In this document: piece after piece, positions 35,182 to 43,900 of the stretch
How the letters are laid out: each line of letters opens with the position of its first letter
Numbering within the stretch: position 1 is the stretch's first letter
Origin: Chromobacterium sphagni
GTDB taxonomy: Bacteria; Pseudomonadota; Gammaproteobacteria; Burkholderiales; Chromobacteriaceae
NCBI RefSeq assembly: GCF_001855555.1
Contig: NZ_MKCT01000021.1
Span: 1-64,000, forward strand
Direction: 5' to 3'
DNA: 64,000 bases
Made by a program: the position numbers and the translations under genes
Notes under the pieces: model-generated
Told to the model about the DNA's origin: nothing
The model's input: only the letters and a program-made list of their open reading frames with translations
The model's database searches: none

Positions 35182-38096
<2,915 letters not shown>

Positions 38097-38118: not shown

Positions 38119-38146
38119 AAACGCCGCCGGTTTCCAGGCGGCGTTT
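38119..38146 (+). terminator. Terminator of purB
   Basis: Ten-bp perfect stem AAACGCCGCC / GGCGGCGTTT with an 8-nt loop, followed by TTCATTT, 22 bp after the purB stop. Confidence 0.88.
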
Positions 38147-38382
38147 TTCATTTCCCCGCCAATCCGCCATCGCCCCATTTCTCCGGCTTGCGGCATGTTC
38201 GCCGCAGACGGTTTCCCTCTCCCGGCCCGCAACACAGAATTTTGTAGTCAAAAAGGTAATTGCCCCTGACAATGGAGTGTGAATAACACCAAAAATTATC
38301 ATATACGCTTCGCTGCAAACAGGACGCAAGGCCCAGTGCCGGCACGACCACCCCTTACCCGGGTAACCTGAATAGAGAATGG

Positions 38383-40560
38383 ATGATCATGCAATCAATG
38401 TACGACCAATCCTCGAACACCCCCTCCGCCGACGACAGCGACAGCGACACCACCGCCGCCGCCTCCCCGCAGCCGGTGTCCACCCGCCATCTGCTCAGCC
38501 TGAACGAACGCGGCAACGCCGGGCTGTACCAATACTTCATCGAACACGACACCAATCGCATCCTGCAGCATCTGAACACGCTGCGCGGCATGGCCTTCAC
38601 CCGCGATGCAGAGGATGACCAGGACAATCCGCTGGAGCGTCCCTTCCCCTCGGTCTGCCTGATCGGCCTGGGCCGTTGCGGCTCCAATATCGCGCTGGAT
38701 GTGGCCACCCTGGTGTACAACGCCCGCAAGTTCTACCTGAACGAGTTCAATCAGGACGACAAGAGCGCGCCGGAACAAGAGCAGCGGCCGCGGCGCTGGA
38801 TACGCCGCAACCTGCTGTCGACCCACAAGACGGCCAAGCCGGCCTTCCTGATCGAACCGATGGTGATGCTGGGCGACCTGGACAAGGACATCAAGGGCCG
38901 CATCCGTTTCTCGCGCCGCGGCGAGCAGGGCGATTTCCTCAACAGCTACAACAAGATGAAGATCATGGATCTGGCCGAGATCCACGCCGGCGGCGCCGGC
39001 AACGCGCCCATCCTGGGCCAGTACCTGGCCAAGATCATCCTCAACAAAGACACGCTGAGCTTCTCCGACCCGGACTGGACGCTGATCCACTCCTACCTGG
39101 TGGACTCCTGCGGCATCAAGGCCAACCAGTCGCGGCTGTATTTCTACATCTTCAGCGCCGGCGGCGGCACCGGCTCCGGCATGGCGTCGGAGTTCGGCCT
39201 GGCGCAGCAGTACGCCTACATGAGCAAGACCTTCGAAACCCGCAGCGAAGGCAAGCCCGAGCAGGCCGACGACTACAGCTTCGTGTTCGAGCCCATCTTC
39301 ACCAGCGGCATCTGCATCCTGCCCAACATATCCGGCCAGCACGCCGAGGGCTCGGAGGCGCTGCACATCAACGCCGGCCGCCTTTTGTGCAAATACCTGT
39401 CGGAAGAATGGGACTTCTCCTACAACTTCGACAATGAAGAAGCCGGCGCCGAAAGCGTGATGCGCCGCATCCGGCCGTGGAACGCGATGATGCTGATCTC
39501 CAACGACATCATGCGCTACGCCGAGGAGAACGACGCCGGCAGCATCGAGAATCTGGACGTCAACGCGATGGAGCGCCACGCCAACCAGTACATCTCGCAG
39601 CAGATCTTCAACATCCTCACCGCCCAGGCCGTCACCAGCGACTACGACGAGAACTACTTCCTGCGCGCCGGGATCGACATGGGCGAGACGATACGGCTGG
39701 ACGCCAACGACCTGTTCATGAGCCTGGCAGGCCCGGTGGCGGTAGCCTACGCCGAATCGGTGGTGTCCGACCCGCTGGGCTCGGACGGCTTCGTCAACAA
39801 GCTGGACATCGACGACCTGTTCTTCCGCTCGATAGACCTGCCGCACTTCAACCAGCAGACCCAGGCGATAGAAGGCATCAGCCTGCTGCCGATAGAATCG
39901 GCCAGCTACCGCGCCGCGCTGGCCGACTACAAGCAGTCCGGCTACGCGCCGGAAAAACTGAACCAGCTGTTCTTTTTCCAGAACTGCTCGTCGGTCGTCG
40001 CCATCCTGTCTCTGCCCAAGGGCTACAAGCTGTCCTACCTGGATCTGAACCGCCTGAAGCGCCACCTCAACGACTTGTTCCCCAGCACCACGCTGAAGCG
40101 CTACGCGCTGGTGATCGGCGCCTCCACCAACCTGTCGCTGACCACGCTGGTGGCGAAAAGCCCTTGCCTGAGCGACGACTTCCTGACGCTGATCGTCGCC
40201 TTCATCAAGCGCTGCTTCGCCCACGGCAACCACCGCTTCGACGACAGTCTGGACAAGACGATACTGGAGCTGATCACCGCCGAGCATTTCGACGAAACGG
40301 TGCTGGAGAGGCTGCTGAACGATTACGAGAACCCAGCCAAGATCCTCGACACCAACTGGTTCGCCATCAAGCCGATGTACGAGAAGAAATACCGCGAGTT
40401 GATCCGCGACTCGAAGAAGTTCGTCTCGATCAACGACATCCGCCTGACCCGCGAGCATGTGCAGAAGGCGGTGTGCTATCTGCGCGAAATCTACCGCCAC
40501 CGCATCGGCAAGACCCGGGTGGTGTCACTCAACACCTTCGCCCGCAGCAAGCACGCCTGA
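38383..40560 (+). CDS. Divergent tubulin/FtsZ-superfamily GTPase (725 residues)
   Basis: A large protein with the sequence hallmarks of the tubulin/FtsZ fold but little other likeness to FtsZ. An N-terminal acidic, Ser/Thr-rich extension (1-35) and helical segment (36-75) precede the first strand and T1 loop VCLIGLGRCGSNIALD (91-106). The T4 signature loop follows as SAGGGTGSGMASEFGLAQ (258-275, GGGTGSG at 260-266), and a strand MMLISNDIM (369-377). A T7-like loop RLDANDLFMSLAG (438-450) has D440 and D443 at the places of FtsZ's catalytic NxDxxD aspartates. A C-terminal domain follows with VVAILSLPKG and YALVIGASTN. It is monocistronic, between two terminators. It may belong to the proteobacterial FtsZ-like family described by Makarova and Koonin. 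Any role in membrane remodelling is inference. ATGs at 38389 and 38398 are alternative starts. Confidence 0.82.
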   Translation: MIMQSMYDQSSNTPSADDSDSDTTAAASPQPVSTRHLLSLNERGNAGLYQYFIEHDTNRILQHLNTLRGMAFTRDAEDDQDNPLERPFPSVCLIGLGRCGSNIALDVATLVYNARKFYLNEFNQDDKSAPEQEQRPRRWIRRNLLSTHKTAKPAFLIEPMVMLGDLDKDIKGRIRFSRRGEQGDFLNSYNKMKIMDLAEIHAGGAGNAPILGQYLAKIILNKDTLSFSDPDWTLIHSYLVDSCGIKANQSRLYFYIFSAGGGTGSGMASEFGLAQQYAYMSKTFETRSEGKPEQADDYSFVFEPIFTSGICILPNISGQHAEGSEALHINAGRLLCKYLSEEWDFSYNFDNEEAGAESVMRRIRPWNAMMLISNDIMRYAEENDAGSIENLDVNAMERHANQYISQQIFNILTAQAVTSDYDENYFLRAGIDMGETIRLDANDLFMSLAGPVAVAYAESVVSDPLGSDGFVNKLDIDDLFFRSIDLPHFNQQTQAIEGISLLPIESASYRAALADYKQSGYAPEKLNQLFFFQNCSSVVAILSLPKGYKLSYLDLNRLKRHLNDLFPSTTLKRYALVIGASTNLSLTTLVAKSPCLSDDFLTLIVAFIKRCFAHGNHRFDDSLDKTILELITAEHFDETVLERLLNDYENPAKILDTNWFAIKPMYEKKYRELIRDSKKFVSINDIRLTREHVQKAVCYLREIYRHRIGKTRVVSLNTFARSKHA

Positions 40561-40958
40561 CCCGGCAGTCTTTGCGTCAAGCGCCCCGCCTCGCCCTGCG
40601 CGTCGCGGGGTTTTTACTGCCTAGAATAGTAAAGTAGATTATTTTTTTGCTGCGCCGGCCAAAAGTGTCAACGACATGGTCTCTTGACCAGTTAATGCAG
40701 CTTGGACACCCGGAGATATGCCGGCGCGCTGATGCCGTGAAACGCATCAATCGTTAACAAAAACCGCGGCGTCCCCAAGCACAATCCGGCCACAAATCGC
40801 CCCAAAGCTGGCATAAGCTGCAACAAGGCCGTGTCTGGATTGCAATAAGCACACCATTGGCCCGCTCATGCGGCGGCGGCCTGGTCGGTCGGCTCCGCGC
40901 CTTTCCCAACCTCGCTTCCGCTCATTCGCGCACCGTAATCAAGAGGCAACACGTCCAC
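40561..40958. other. Intergenic region before the RND efflux operon
   Basis: Contains the tubulin-like gene's terminator at its left and then about 340 bp of mixed composition leading to the efflux operon. AT-rich runs near 40620-40650 could hold a promoter, but no clear -35/-10 pair, operator or regulator gene was seen. Open frames here start at non-ATG codons and only extend the efflux pump. Confidence 0.5.
40584..40610 (+). terminator. Terminator of the tubulin-like gene
   Basis: Six-bp GC stem CCCCGC / GCGGGG with a 15-nt loop, followed by TTTTTACT. Confidence 0.7.
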
Positions 40959-43900
40959 ATGTGGATTGTCGAAACGGCCCTTAAACGGCCTTATACCTTC
41001 ATCGTGATGGCCATCATCATCCTGCTGGCCACCCCGCTGGCGATCATGCGCACGCCGGTGGACGTGCTGCCGGAAATCGACATTCCGGTGATCAGCGTGA
41101 TTTGGGGCTACGGCGGCCTCGCGCCGCAGCAGATGGCCGACCGAATCACCCAGACCCACGAGCGGGTGCTGACCACCACCGTCAACGACATCGAACACAT
41201 CGAGTCGCAGTCGCTGTCCGGCATTTCCATCATCAAGATCTTCTTCCAGCCCAACGTCAACATCCAGACCGCGATCGCGCAGGTGGTGGCAGTATCGCAG
41301 GCGGTGGTGAAGCAGATGCCGCCGGGCGCGACCGCTCCGCTGATCATCAAGTACACCGCCTCCAGCGTGCCGGTGATCCAGTTGGGGCTGTCCAGCAAAT
41401 CGATGTCGGAACAGGACGTGTTCGACACCGCCGTCAACATTCTCCGACCGCAGCTGGTGACGATACCGGGCATCGCCATCACCTATCCTTACGGCGGCAA
41501 GGTGCGCCTGCTGTCGGTAGACCTGGACACCCGCGCCATCGCCGCCAAGGGCCTGACGCCGGCCGACGTGGTCAACGCCGTCAACAGCCAGAACCTGGCA
41601 TTGCCCTCCGGCACCGCCAAGATAGGCGGCACCGAATACAATGTGGAGCTGAACGGCTCGCCCGACACCATCGCCGGCCTCAACAACATCCCGGTGAAGA
41701 CGGTGAACGGCGCCACGGTATTCCTGCGCGAGGTGGCGCACGTGCGCGACGGCTTCTCGCCGCAGACCAACATCGTCAAGCAGAACGGCCAGCGCGGCCT
41801 GATGATGTCGATCTACAAGAACGGCGGCGCCTCGACGCTGGACGTGGTCAACCACTTGAAGGAAAAGCTGCCCAGCCTGCTGCCGCTGCTGCCCAAGAGC
41901 ATCCAGATCAGCCTGCTGGCCGACCAGTCGATCTTCGTCAAGACCGCGGTCAGCGGCGTGATTCACGAGGCGCTGGTGGCGGCGGTGCTCACCGCGGTGA
42001 TGCTGCTGCTGTTCCTGGGCAACTGGCGCACCACCTCCATCATCGCCATCTCCATCCCGCTGTCCATCTTCTCGTCCATCGTCGCGCTGCACGCGATAGG
42101 CGAAACCATCAACGTGATGACGCTGGGGGGCCTGGCGCTGGCGGTCGGCATTCTGGTGGACGACGCCACGGTGACGATAGAAAACATCGAGCGCCACCTG
42201 CACATGGGTTCGCCGCTGTATACCGCCATCCTGGACGGCGCCGGCGAAATCGCCATTCCGGCCTTCGTCTCCACGCTGTGCATCTGCATCGTGTTCGTGC
42301 CGATGTTCTTCCTGGAGGGCGTCGCCCGCTACCTGTTCGTGCCCATGGCCGAGGCGGTGGTCTTCGCCATGCTGGCCTCCTACGTGCTGTCGCGGACCCT
42401 GGTGCCGACGTTGGCGCTGCTGCTGATGGGCCACCGCCATGGCAACGGCCGCGTCGACCGGTGGATACACCATGTGCATGAAGGCTTCAACGCCCGTTTC
42501 GAGCGGCTGCGCGAGCTGTACGTGCACTTGCTCAGCCACCTGTTGACCCACCGCAAGAGCTTCATCGCCGGCTTCCTGGGCTTCTGCCTGGCCTCCTGCG
42601 GCCTGTACCTGCTGCTGGGACGCGACCTGTTTCCGGAGGTGGACACCGGCCAGATCAAGCTGCACGTGCGCGCGCCCACCGGCATCCGCATCGAGAACAC
42701 CGCAGTCCTGGCCGACCAGGTCGACGCCGTCATCCGCGGCGTGATTCCGCCCGCCGATCTGGACTCCATCATCGACAACATCGGCCTGCCGTACAGCGGC
42801 ATCAACCTGTCCTACAGCAACTCCGGCACCATAGGCACGCTGGACGACGAGGTGCTGATCTCGCTCAAACCCGGCCACCAGCCCAGCAGCGGCTATATCG
42901 ACGCCCTGCCCAAGGTGCTGGAAAAACGCTTCCCAGGCGTGGAGTTCTTCTTCCAGCCTGCCGACATCATCACCCAGATTCTCAACTTCGGCTCACCCGC
43001 CGCCATCGACGTGCAGATCGTCGGCAAGAGCCAGGCCGACAACGCCGCCTTCGCCGGCCGGCTGCTGTCGCGGATCAAGGCGGTGCCGGGCGCGGCCGAC
43101 GTGCATGTGCACCAGCGGCTGGACTCGCCGTCGATCCAGCTCGCCATGGACCGGGCGCGGATGCAGGGCATGGGCATCGCGCCGTTCGACGTGGCGCAGA
43201 ACCTGTTGCTGCCGCTGTCCGGCAGCCAGCAGACCCAGCCGGCGTTCTGGCTGAATCCGGCCAACAGCATCGTCTACAACCTGCAGGCGCAGACGCCGCA
43301 ATACCAGATCAGCACGCTGGACCAGCTGATGCAGCTGCCGATCAACCCGGCCGGCGGCCGCGCCGCCAGCCAGCAGACGCTGGGCAATCTGGTCAGCGCC
43401 GCGCCGGGACGCGAAGCCGCCATCGTCACCCGCTACAACATCCTGCCTTCGATCGACCTCTACGCCAGCGCGCGCGGCCGCGATCTGGGTTCGGTGGCCG
43501 GCGCCATCCAGCAGATCATCGCCGAGGAGCAGGTCCATCTGCCCAAGGGCAGCCAGATCCACATGCGCGGCCAGGTGGAAACCATGCAGTCGTCCTACCT
43601 CGGCCTCGGCGTCGGCATCCTCGGCGCCATCGTGCTGGTCTACCTGCTGATCGTGGTGAATTTCCAGTCCTGGCTGGACCCCTTCATCATCATCAGCGCG
43701 CTGCCGGCGGCGCTGGCCGGCATCGCCTGGCTGCTGATCCTCACCGGCACCGACCTTTCCGTGCCGGCGCTGACCGGCGCCATCATGACCATGGGGGTGG
43801 CCACCGCCAACAGCATCCTGGTGGTCTCCTTCGCCCGCCAGCGGCTGCACGAAGGCCTGCCGCCGCTGTCCGCCGCGCTGGAGGCCGGCGCCACCCGGCT

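Follow-up and report, generated by a model that had tools for sequence, protein, structure and literature searches.

The window analysed here, a stretch of 64,000 nucleotides of the Chromobacterium sphagni contig NZ_MKCT01000021.1, carries a gene whose 725-residue product is, as far as its sequence tells, a member of FtsZl2, an FtsZ-like family of Proteobacteria that Makarova and Koonin described in 2010 (PMC2875224). In other genera, relatives of this gene recurrently lie beside genes for GGDEF/EAL enzymes of cyclic di-GMP (c-di-GMP) signalling, which raises the possibility that a tubulin-type protein and c-di-GMP enzymes share a pathway. The gene, as supported by its open reading frame (ORF) and family relatives, and its tubulin-type elements are located as follows.

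38383..40560 (including the stop codon), + strand: FtsZl2-family gene, 725 aa, ATG start
38665..38688, + strand: T1-like loop GLGRCGSN, residues 95-102
38992..39018, + strand: T3-like loop GAGNAPILG, residues 204-212
39160..39180, + strand: T4 tubulin signature GGGTGSG, residues 260-266
39496..39507, + strand: T6-like ISND, residues 372-375 (FtsZ consensus IPNE)
39568..39630, + strand: H7-like segment MERHANQYISQQIFNILTAQA, residues 396-416
39691..39714, + strand: T7-like loop IRLDANDL, residues 437-444, with D440 and D443

The ORF lies where the earlier note had put it, as do GLGRCGSN, GGGTGSG and RLDANDL with its two aspartates, and the T3-like and T6-like loops are additions to that description. 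The H7 label is our own assignment, made after the element order in PMC2875224. The G, A, G, P and G of GAGNAPILG are spaced as in the FtsZ loop GAGANPEVG. Among 74 aligned family members (mean column identity 65%), the T1 core GRCGSN and the T7 segment RLDANDLF are present in all 74 and the T4 motif GGGTGSG in 73, so that the conservation claimed for T4 and T7 holds across the family; neither T7 aspartate varies, and Arg438 stands where FtsZ (NxDxxD) has its T7 asparagine. The distance from T1 to T4 is 165 residues; in the genome's own FtsZ it is 88 (between invariant columns 45 and 133). In 200,000 shuffles of the protein the T4 motif arose once and the T1-T3-T4 chain never, and of 5,643 distinct frames of at least 150 aa, drawn from the collected loci plus the window, the T1-T3-T4 pattern was found in 172, comprising 162 FtsZl2 and 10 FtsZ frames and none else; the chain is therefore not a product of chance. 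The five-loop pattern occurs in 8 of the 10 FtsZ frames and in all chain-bearing FtsZl2 frames except 6, which belong to the family labelled f207. Two frames have the T4 motif without the chain, namely the fragment L113 and L205, and in the FtsZl2 of L205/L210 (genome G1338) serine replaces alanine in T3 (GSGNAPILG), T1 and T4 being unchanged.

FtsZl2 has been described with T1, T4, T6, T7 and H7, with inserts between T1 and T4 and with a C-terminal region of ~300 aa, mixed alpha/beta and without known relatives; its type protein is PFL_1302 of Pseudomonas fluorescens Pf-5, and the legend of Figure 1 names Chromobacterium violaceum and Marinomonas for the family (PMC2875224). The window protein has all the named loops, the long T1-T4 stretch and a C-terminal region of ~280 aa without a Pfam family, it coexists with an ordinary FtsZ, and no protein-level difference from FtsZl2 was found. 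It was filed under this family because the published features are present and because the homologue of P. protegens FD6 (L057), from the species to which strain Pf-5 is now assigned, is 72% identical; the same search showed four relatives labelled Chromobacterium to be 88-92% identical. Since C. violaceum stands in the 2010 legend, the membership of Chromobacterium is already known and the protein is not new. The earlier note had proposed a Makarova-Koonin family acting in membrane remodelling; the membership stands, as FtsZl2, but the role does not carry over, as the membrane-remodelling inference rests on FtsZl1, with its vWA, GTPase and OmpA neighbours, and for FtsZl2 the accessible text reports that neither associated genes nor functional clues were found (PMC2875224).

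The Pfam matches of the window protein are all below threshold, with 16.4 bits for PF00091 (cut-off 33) and 13.6 bits for PF13809 over residues 244-375 (cut-off 27), and FtsZ_C gave no match; all 54 scanned members match both PF00091 and PF13809 at E<=1, with best values of 0.0012 and 0.0013. NCBIfam and PADLOC returned no match to the window protein and PHROGs one irrelevant match, a sequence search of solved structures returned nothing, and the family profile searched against solved structures returned only three ribosomal uL23 sequences (E 0.87-1.4). The assignment to the tubulin/FtsZ superfamily rests on motif order, on these Pfam matches below cut-off and on HHpred, as published for PFL_1302 (E 0.0033; PMC2875224). 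With FtsZ the window protein shares five loops in the same order; it differs in PF00091 falling below cut-off, in its flanks and in being nearly twice as long (725 aa vs 383-420 aa for ten FtsZ proteins), much as the earlier note had described a stand-alone, divergent protein that is not ftsZ. A gene of the ftsZ/division cluster was rejected as an identification, given a separate FtsZ in the window genome (one, at G000:C1:1199337-1199813) and flanks consisting of purB and an efflux operon. FtsZl1/Tubulin_2 (PF13809) has in common with the window protein GGGTGSG and the weak profile match; T6, H7 and T7 are kept in FtsZl2 and were reported as not findable in FtsZl1 (PMC2875224), and no vWA gene lies directly beside the window gene, as judged from its immediate neighbours. 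TubZ, PhuZ, CetZ and bacterial tubulins share the superfamily signature only, and TubZ and PhuZ further differ in that the window gene is chromosomal and has no plasmid or phage matches.

Neighbour genes were clustered around 97 loci with no family chosen beforehand. Of the 40 widest neighbour clusters listed, only FtsZl2 and one GGDEF/EAL family join Pseudomonas with the families labelled f199 and f54; clusters c9 and c22 link Pseudomonas to a single f199 locus, L154, and are there 7 kb away from FtsZl2. Pfam resolved six of the neighbours into MHYT-GGDEF-EAL, NMT1-GGDEF, Ammonium_transp-PAS-GGDEF-EAL and PAS/GAF-GGDEF-EAL architectures. For the counts, 177 context loci were assembled (the best 80 of 545 relatives, 96 hand-picked loci and the window), of which 161 distinct loci were kept after 16 duplicates had been dropped, and they were scanned by tblastn (E 1e-4) with six queries drawn from these loci, four of them GGDEF and two EAL, because in some GC-rich loci the gene caller chose ORFs that are antisense shadows; the scan may overlook divergent domains. 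A GGDEF and/or EAL ORF lies within 1.1 kb of FtsZl2 in 96 of the 161 distinct loci, on the same strand in 96/96. These near zones amount to 350,819 bp, and the remaining 2,244,369 bp of flank hold three GGDEF/EAL ORFs; of these, the one in G076 (f54) follows FtsZl2 on its own strand at a distance of 2.2 kb.

The order of the two genes varies. Pseudomonas loci have the MHYT type upstream in 66 cases (one of these, L269, a 91-aa EAL fragment assigned by position) and downstream in 4, the NMT1 type upstream in 3 and downstream in 3, and neither in 26, and f199 loci have the ammonium-transporter type downstream in 16, upstream in 4 and none in 9. Each of the three sensor architectures, which are unrelated to one another, precedes FtsZl2 in some clades and follows it in others. 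Between the preceding and the following versions, identity is 66-70% in the NMT1 type, 70-76% in the ammonium-transporter type and 51-57% in the MHYT type, suggesting that adjacency persisted or re-formed while the order changed. In the Pseudomonas-genus sample, for which FtsZl2 coordinates were listed for 150 genomes and MHYT coordinates for 150, the two genes are adjacent in 107/107 genomes with both among the matches listed, 216-1105 bp apart on the same strand with MHYT upstream; 43 FtsZl2 genomes are absent among the MHYT matches listed. This uniformity is probably one inherited arrangement and speaks for stability, not for repeated origin. The MHYT-GGDEF-EAL gene of Pseudomonas is followed by a 3-hydroxyisobutyrate-dehydrogenase-type gene, an order that may resemble that of PA3311-PA3312 (NbdA). 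The claim that no partner lies beside the gene is borne out for the window, whose whole 64 kb yielded no GGDEF/EAL ORF in the tblastn scan, and for 12 Chromobacterium loci, and it often fails in Pseudomonas and f199.

A quick tree with long-branch warnings, in which similar sequences under one label were represented by a single row, was used to define 14 clades: three of Pseudomonas, three of f199, two of f207, and f54, f197, f198, f272, Chromobacteriaceae and a Laribacter metagenome-assembled genome (MAG). A GGDEF/EAL neighbour within 1.1 kb is found in 5 of the 14. The binomial chance of at least 5/14 is 4e-10 at the local far-flank density, 2e-6 at 47 candidates per 6.2 Mb, which we took as typical, and 6e-5 at the densest first-look count, and that of at least 3/14, with the three architectures only, is 9e-6, 0.0015 and 0.0098 at the same densities; a division into 13 clades gave similar values. 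The pattern had already been seen when the clades and the 1.1-kb limit were chosen, so that all of these figures are illustrative only. A search of the open-licence literature for tubulin/FtsZ-like proteins together with GGDEF, c-di-GMP or MHYT yielded nothing tied to the FtsZl2 linkage: the matching passage of PMC6828691 concerns FtsZ itself, the passages of PMC9871819 discuss Tubulin_2 FtsZ-like proteins only, and later work on FtsZl2 beyond the 2010 paper was not found there, the one other paper in which the name turned up using it for a mutant. The recurrent GGDEF/EAL neighbours in other genera, set against the absence of associated genes in the accessible text of that paper, appear to be new.

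The distribution of FtsZl2 is patchy. All whole-genome searches were made within the phylum of the window, and the gene was found in 13/19 genomes of its genus and 15/61 of its family, in 23/390 genomes of the order sample (which adds the families f197, f198 and f272), in 2/274 of the class sample (one being the window's own genome) and in 9/398 of the phylum sample, including the window's own genome and one broken copy. It is present in 194/298 sampled genomes of a genus recognised as Pseudomonas by shared contigs, as a single copy in 191/194 and with two matches each in G804, G946 and G992, in 29/48 genomes of the single-genus family f199, which by our guess only is perhaps Marinomonas, a genus listed in the 2010 paper, in 1/3 of f54 and in 11/12 of f207, one broken copy counted. 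The best 80 of 545 relatives all carry proteobacterial labels, these being Pseudomonas, Chromobacterium, Vogesella, Laribacter, Xenophilus and Pseudomonadaceae or Gammaproteobacteria MAGs. Within f207, the broken FtsZl2 lies in several fragments (L167, G717:C1:2486901-2489729, also L112-L114, L152 and L153), and longer uninterrupted copies occur in ten other genomes of the family; in six loci of this family (L159-L163, L167) a 6-phosphofructokinase cluster follows FtsZl2 on the same strand, and L159, L161, L162 and L167 also have a succinyl-CoA ligase subunit cluster on the upstream side. This neighbourhood is stable and contains no c-di-GMP genes. The FtsZl2 of f272 (L212, L213) is the most divergent found, 57-59% identical with its loops intact, and has no GGDEF neighbour, but the contigs are short.

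An over-threshold FtsZ was also found in 7/7 FtsZl2-bearing genomes searched with PF00091. In 17 of 21 genome pairs core identity is higher for FtsZl2 than for FtsZ, as between Chromobacterium and Pseudomonas (79% vs 63%) and between f199 and one f207 genus (83% vs 66%), and it is lower between the two f207 genera (78 vs 90%), between Chromobacterium and the family member G349 (87 vs 91%) and between f54 and f207 (69 and 70 vs 75 and 74%). Horizontal transfer is, by inference, the best account of this pattern; FtsZl2 would be a chromosomal, horizontally spread accessory protein. The tblastn searches gave no FtsZl2 match among 72,556 plasmid or 50,697 phage records, and the 123 pattern matches among viral contigs included none encoding an FtsZl2 relative; a plasmid or phage origin was rejected on these grounds.

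The gene of the window is flanked upstream by purB (Lyase_1, ASL_C; 36726-38096) and downstream by an AcrB/HlyD/OEP efflux operon beginning at 40959; the earlier note had likewise placed it between purB and an efflux operon. The remaining features of the gene and its surroundings are the following.

38119..38146, + strand: terminator-like hairpin between purB and the FtsZl2 gene, from the hairpin scan
38236..38295, + strand: 60-bp conserved block, 87-147 bp 5' of the start codon, a possible promoter/operator, from alignment
38383..38532, + strand: variable N-terminal extension, residues 1-50, from alignments
39715..40557, + strand: C-terminal region, residues 445-725, without a Pfam family above cut-off
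40593..40611, + strand: terminator-like hairpin 3' of the FtsZl2 gene, from the hairpin scan

The hairpin scan found 4 sites in 3 kb versus a mean of 3.1 in shuffled sequence, so each terminator-like hairpin is weak evidence. The upstream block is conserved in most of 11 aligned Chromobacterium copies, no consensus sigma-70 site was found at it, and its role might be that of an operator or of a promoter of another type. The Chromobacterium gene is probably transcribed alone. The N-terminus is acidic, as had been claimed, with 14 D+E against 5 K+R in residues 1-85. The order ffh-purB-FtsZl2 seems common to Chromobacterium and one Vogesella (Vogesella oryzae, L019/L166) and is seen neither in the other Vogesella-genus genome (L165) nor in L018; the downstream efflux operon of Chromobacterium is not shared with Vogesella.

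Taken as a whole, we give a probability of about 0.5 to the reading that FtsZl2 binds GTP, probably self-assembles and is coupled to c-di-GMP signalling, any partner in Chromobacterium acting in trans. The intact T4 and T7 suggest GTP binding and self-assembly, and the gene linkage in other genera suggests action with membrane-bound c-di-GMP enzymes. FtsZl2 would bind GTP, assemble head to tail, with each subunit's T7 aspartates completing the active site of the following one, and hydrolyse GTP. It could belong to the same pathway as a membrane-bound c-di-GMP enzyme, where it would most likely serve as a dynamic scaffold or switch; its state of assembly would be set by, or would set, the local c-di-GMP output, the usual outputs being surface attachment or motility. 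In Chromobacterium, where no c-di-GMP gene adjoins and transcription is probably solitary, the partner would have to be reached in trans. A bolder version, which we put forward tentatively, would make FtsZl2 the cytoskeletal arm of a c-di-GMP module, in which a membrane-bound diguanylate cyclase/phosphodiesterase is linked with the assembly of the tubulin-type GTPase and interchangeable MHYT, periplasmic NMT1-type and ammonium-transporter sensors serve one filament system.

A number of observations weigh against such a coupling. No GGDEF/EAL neighbour lies within 1.1 kb in 65 of the 161 distinct loci (26 Pseudomonas, 12 Chromobacterium, 10 f207 including one broken copy, 9 f199, 2 Vogesella, 2 f272 and 1 each of the Laribacter MAG, f197, f198 and f54), nor in 9 of the 14 clades, that of Chromobacterium included; linkage is inherited within a clade, so that the loci are not independent. 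In many Pseudomonas an opposite-strand gene, within a gap of ~985 bp, separates FtsZl2 from the GGDEF/EAL gene, and the pair is therefore not one operon there; the enzyme, moreover, does not need FtsZl2, since 21 genomes with MHYT among the matches listed are without it (e.g. G644, G620, G826, G847). GGDEF genes are also abundant in Pseudomonas, with 21-70 first-look candidates per genome among the matches listed. The clades without the neighbour, the gap with its opposite-strand gene and the abundance of GGDEF genes favour the alternative that FtsZl2 forms filaments as a tubulin homologue and has nothing to do with c-di-GMP, serving for example the organisation of shape, membrane or chromosome; the synteny with GGDEF genes would then be inherited and without function. 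We consider this alternative possible and lean against it, in view of the three sensor architectures on either side of the gene, the invariable strand agreement, the nearly empty far flanks and the small, illustrative chance figures at the densest first-look count (6e-5 and 0.01 for at least 5 and at least 3 of 14 clades).

Other evidence bears on the tubulin-type fold itself. Ten other Pfam families match 1-11 of the 54 members each, and E-values similar to those of PF00091 and PF13809 were obtained for the unrelated DUF6562 (0.00041, 3 members) and Noc2 (0.0044, 11 members). AlphaFold models from a 27-row alignment of the full length and a 74-row alignment of residues 85-615 reached a mean predicted local distance difference test (pLDDT) score of 37.1 and 40.0, with low confidence in the GTPase half. 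The 281-aa C-terminal region has a partly confident strand-helix pattern in these low-quality models; residues 475-574 reach 50-87 pLDDT per ten-residue block in the second model, and their alternating strand/helix order would, on our reading, be compatible with the C-terminal domain of FtsZ. When the second model was searched with Foldseek and VIA-align, nothing rose above noise; no tubulin/FtsZ chain stood among the 50 matches listed by each, which is uninformative either way. The profile-profile comparison with FtsZ that the earlier note had called for did not exceed its controls: with an effective sequence number of 1.6, hhalign of FtsZl2 against 8 FtsZ scored 23.64, below 2 of 60 column shuffles (best 23.95) and the reversed-profile control (25.43), and so lends no support to homology with FtsZ. 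Searches of the open-licence literature brought up no data on the expression, localisation or GTPase activity of FtsZl2 or on its relation to c-di-GMP.

The long stretch between T1 (at 95) and T4 (at 260), the lack of an FtsZ_C match and Arg438 in place of the T7 asparagine would fit a GTP-binding switch or adaptor that dimerises without forming filaments. We regard this as less likely than not, because T7 aspartates without exception and a T4 kept in all but one of the aligned members are what would be expected if the catalytic interface is used. That FtsZl2 is part of a membrane-remodelling machine like the FtsZl1/vWA system might be read from the title of the 2010 paper, which covers both families; the vWA/GTPase/OmpA operon, however, is reported in the accessible text for FtsZl1 only (PMC2875224), the PF13809 score is about half its cut-off, and the immediate neighbours here are purB and the efflux operon, so that we hold this improbable. 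A segregation tubulin of TubZ/PhuZ type stranded on the chromosome would account for the patchy distribution and the signs of horizontal transfer, and it is the least credible of these explanations, very improbable given the empty plasmid, phage and viral searches reported above.

A direct connection of c-di-GMP signalling with the tubulin cytoskeleton of bacteria is not known to have been established. With a core more conserved than that of FtsZ in most genome pairs, and a presence in about two thirds of the sampled Pseudomonas genomes, FtsZl2 should have a definable role, and the 21 Pseudomonas-genus genomes that carry MHYT-GGDEF-EAL without FtsZl2 provide natural strains for comparison. With the recurrent c-di-GMP neighbours, the function of this orphan family becomes testable.

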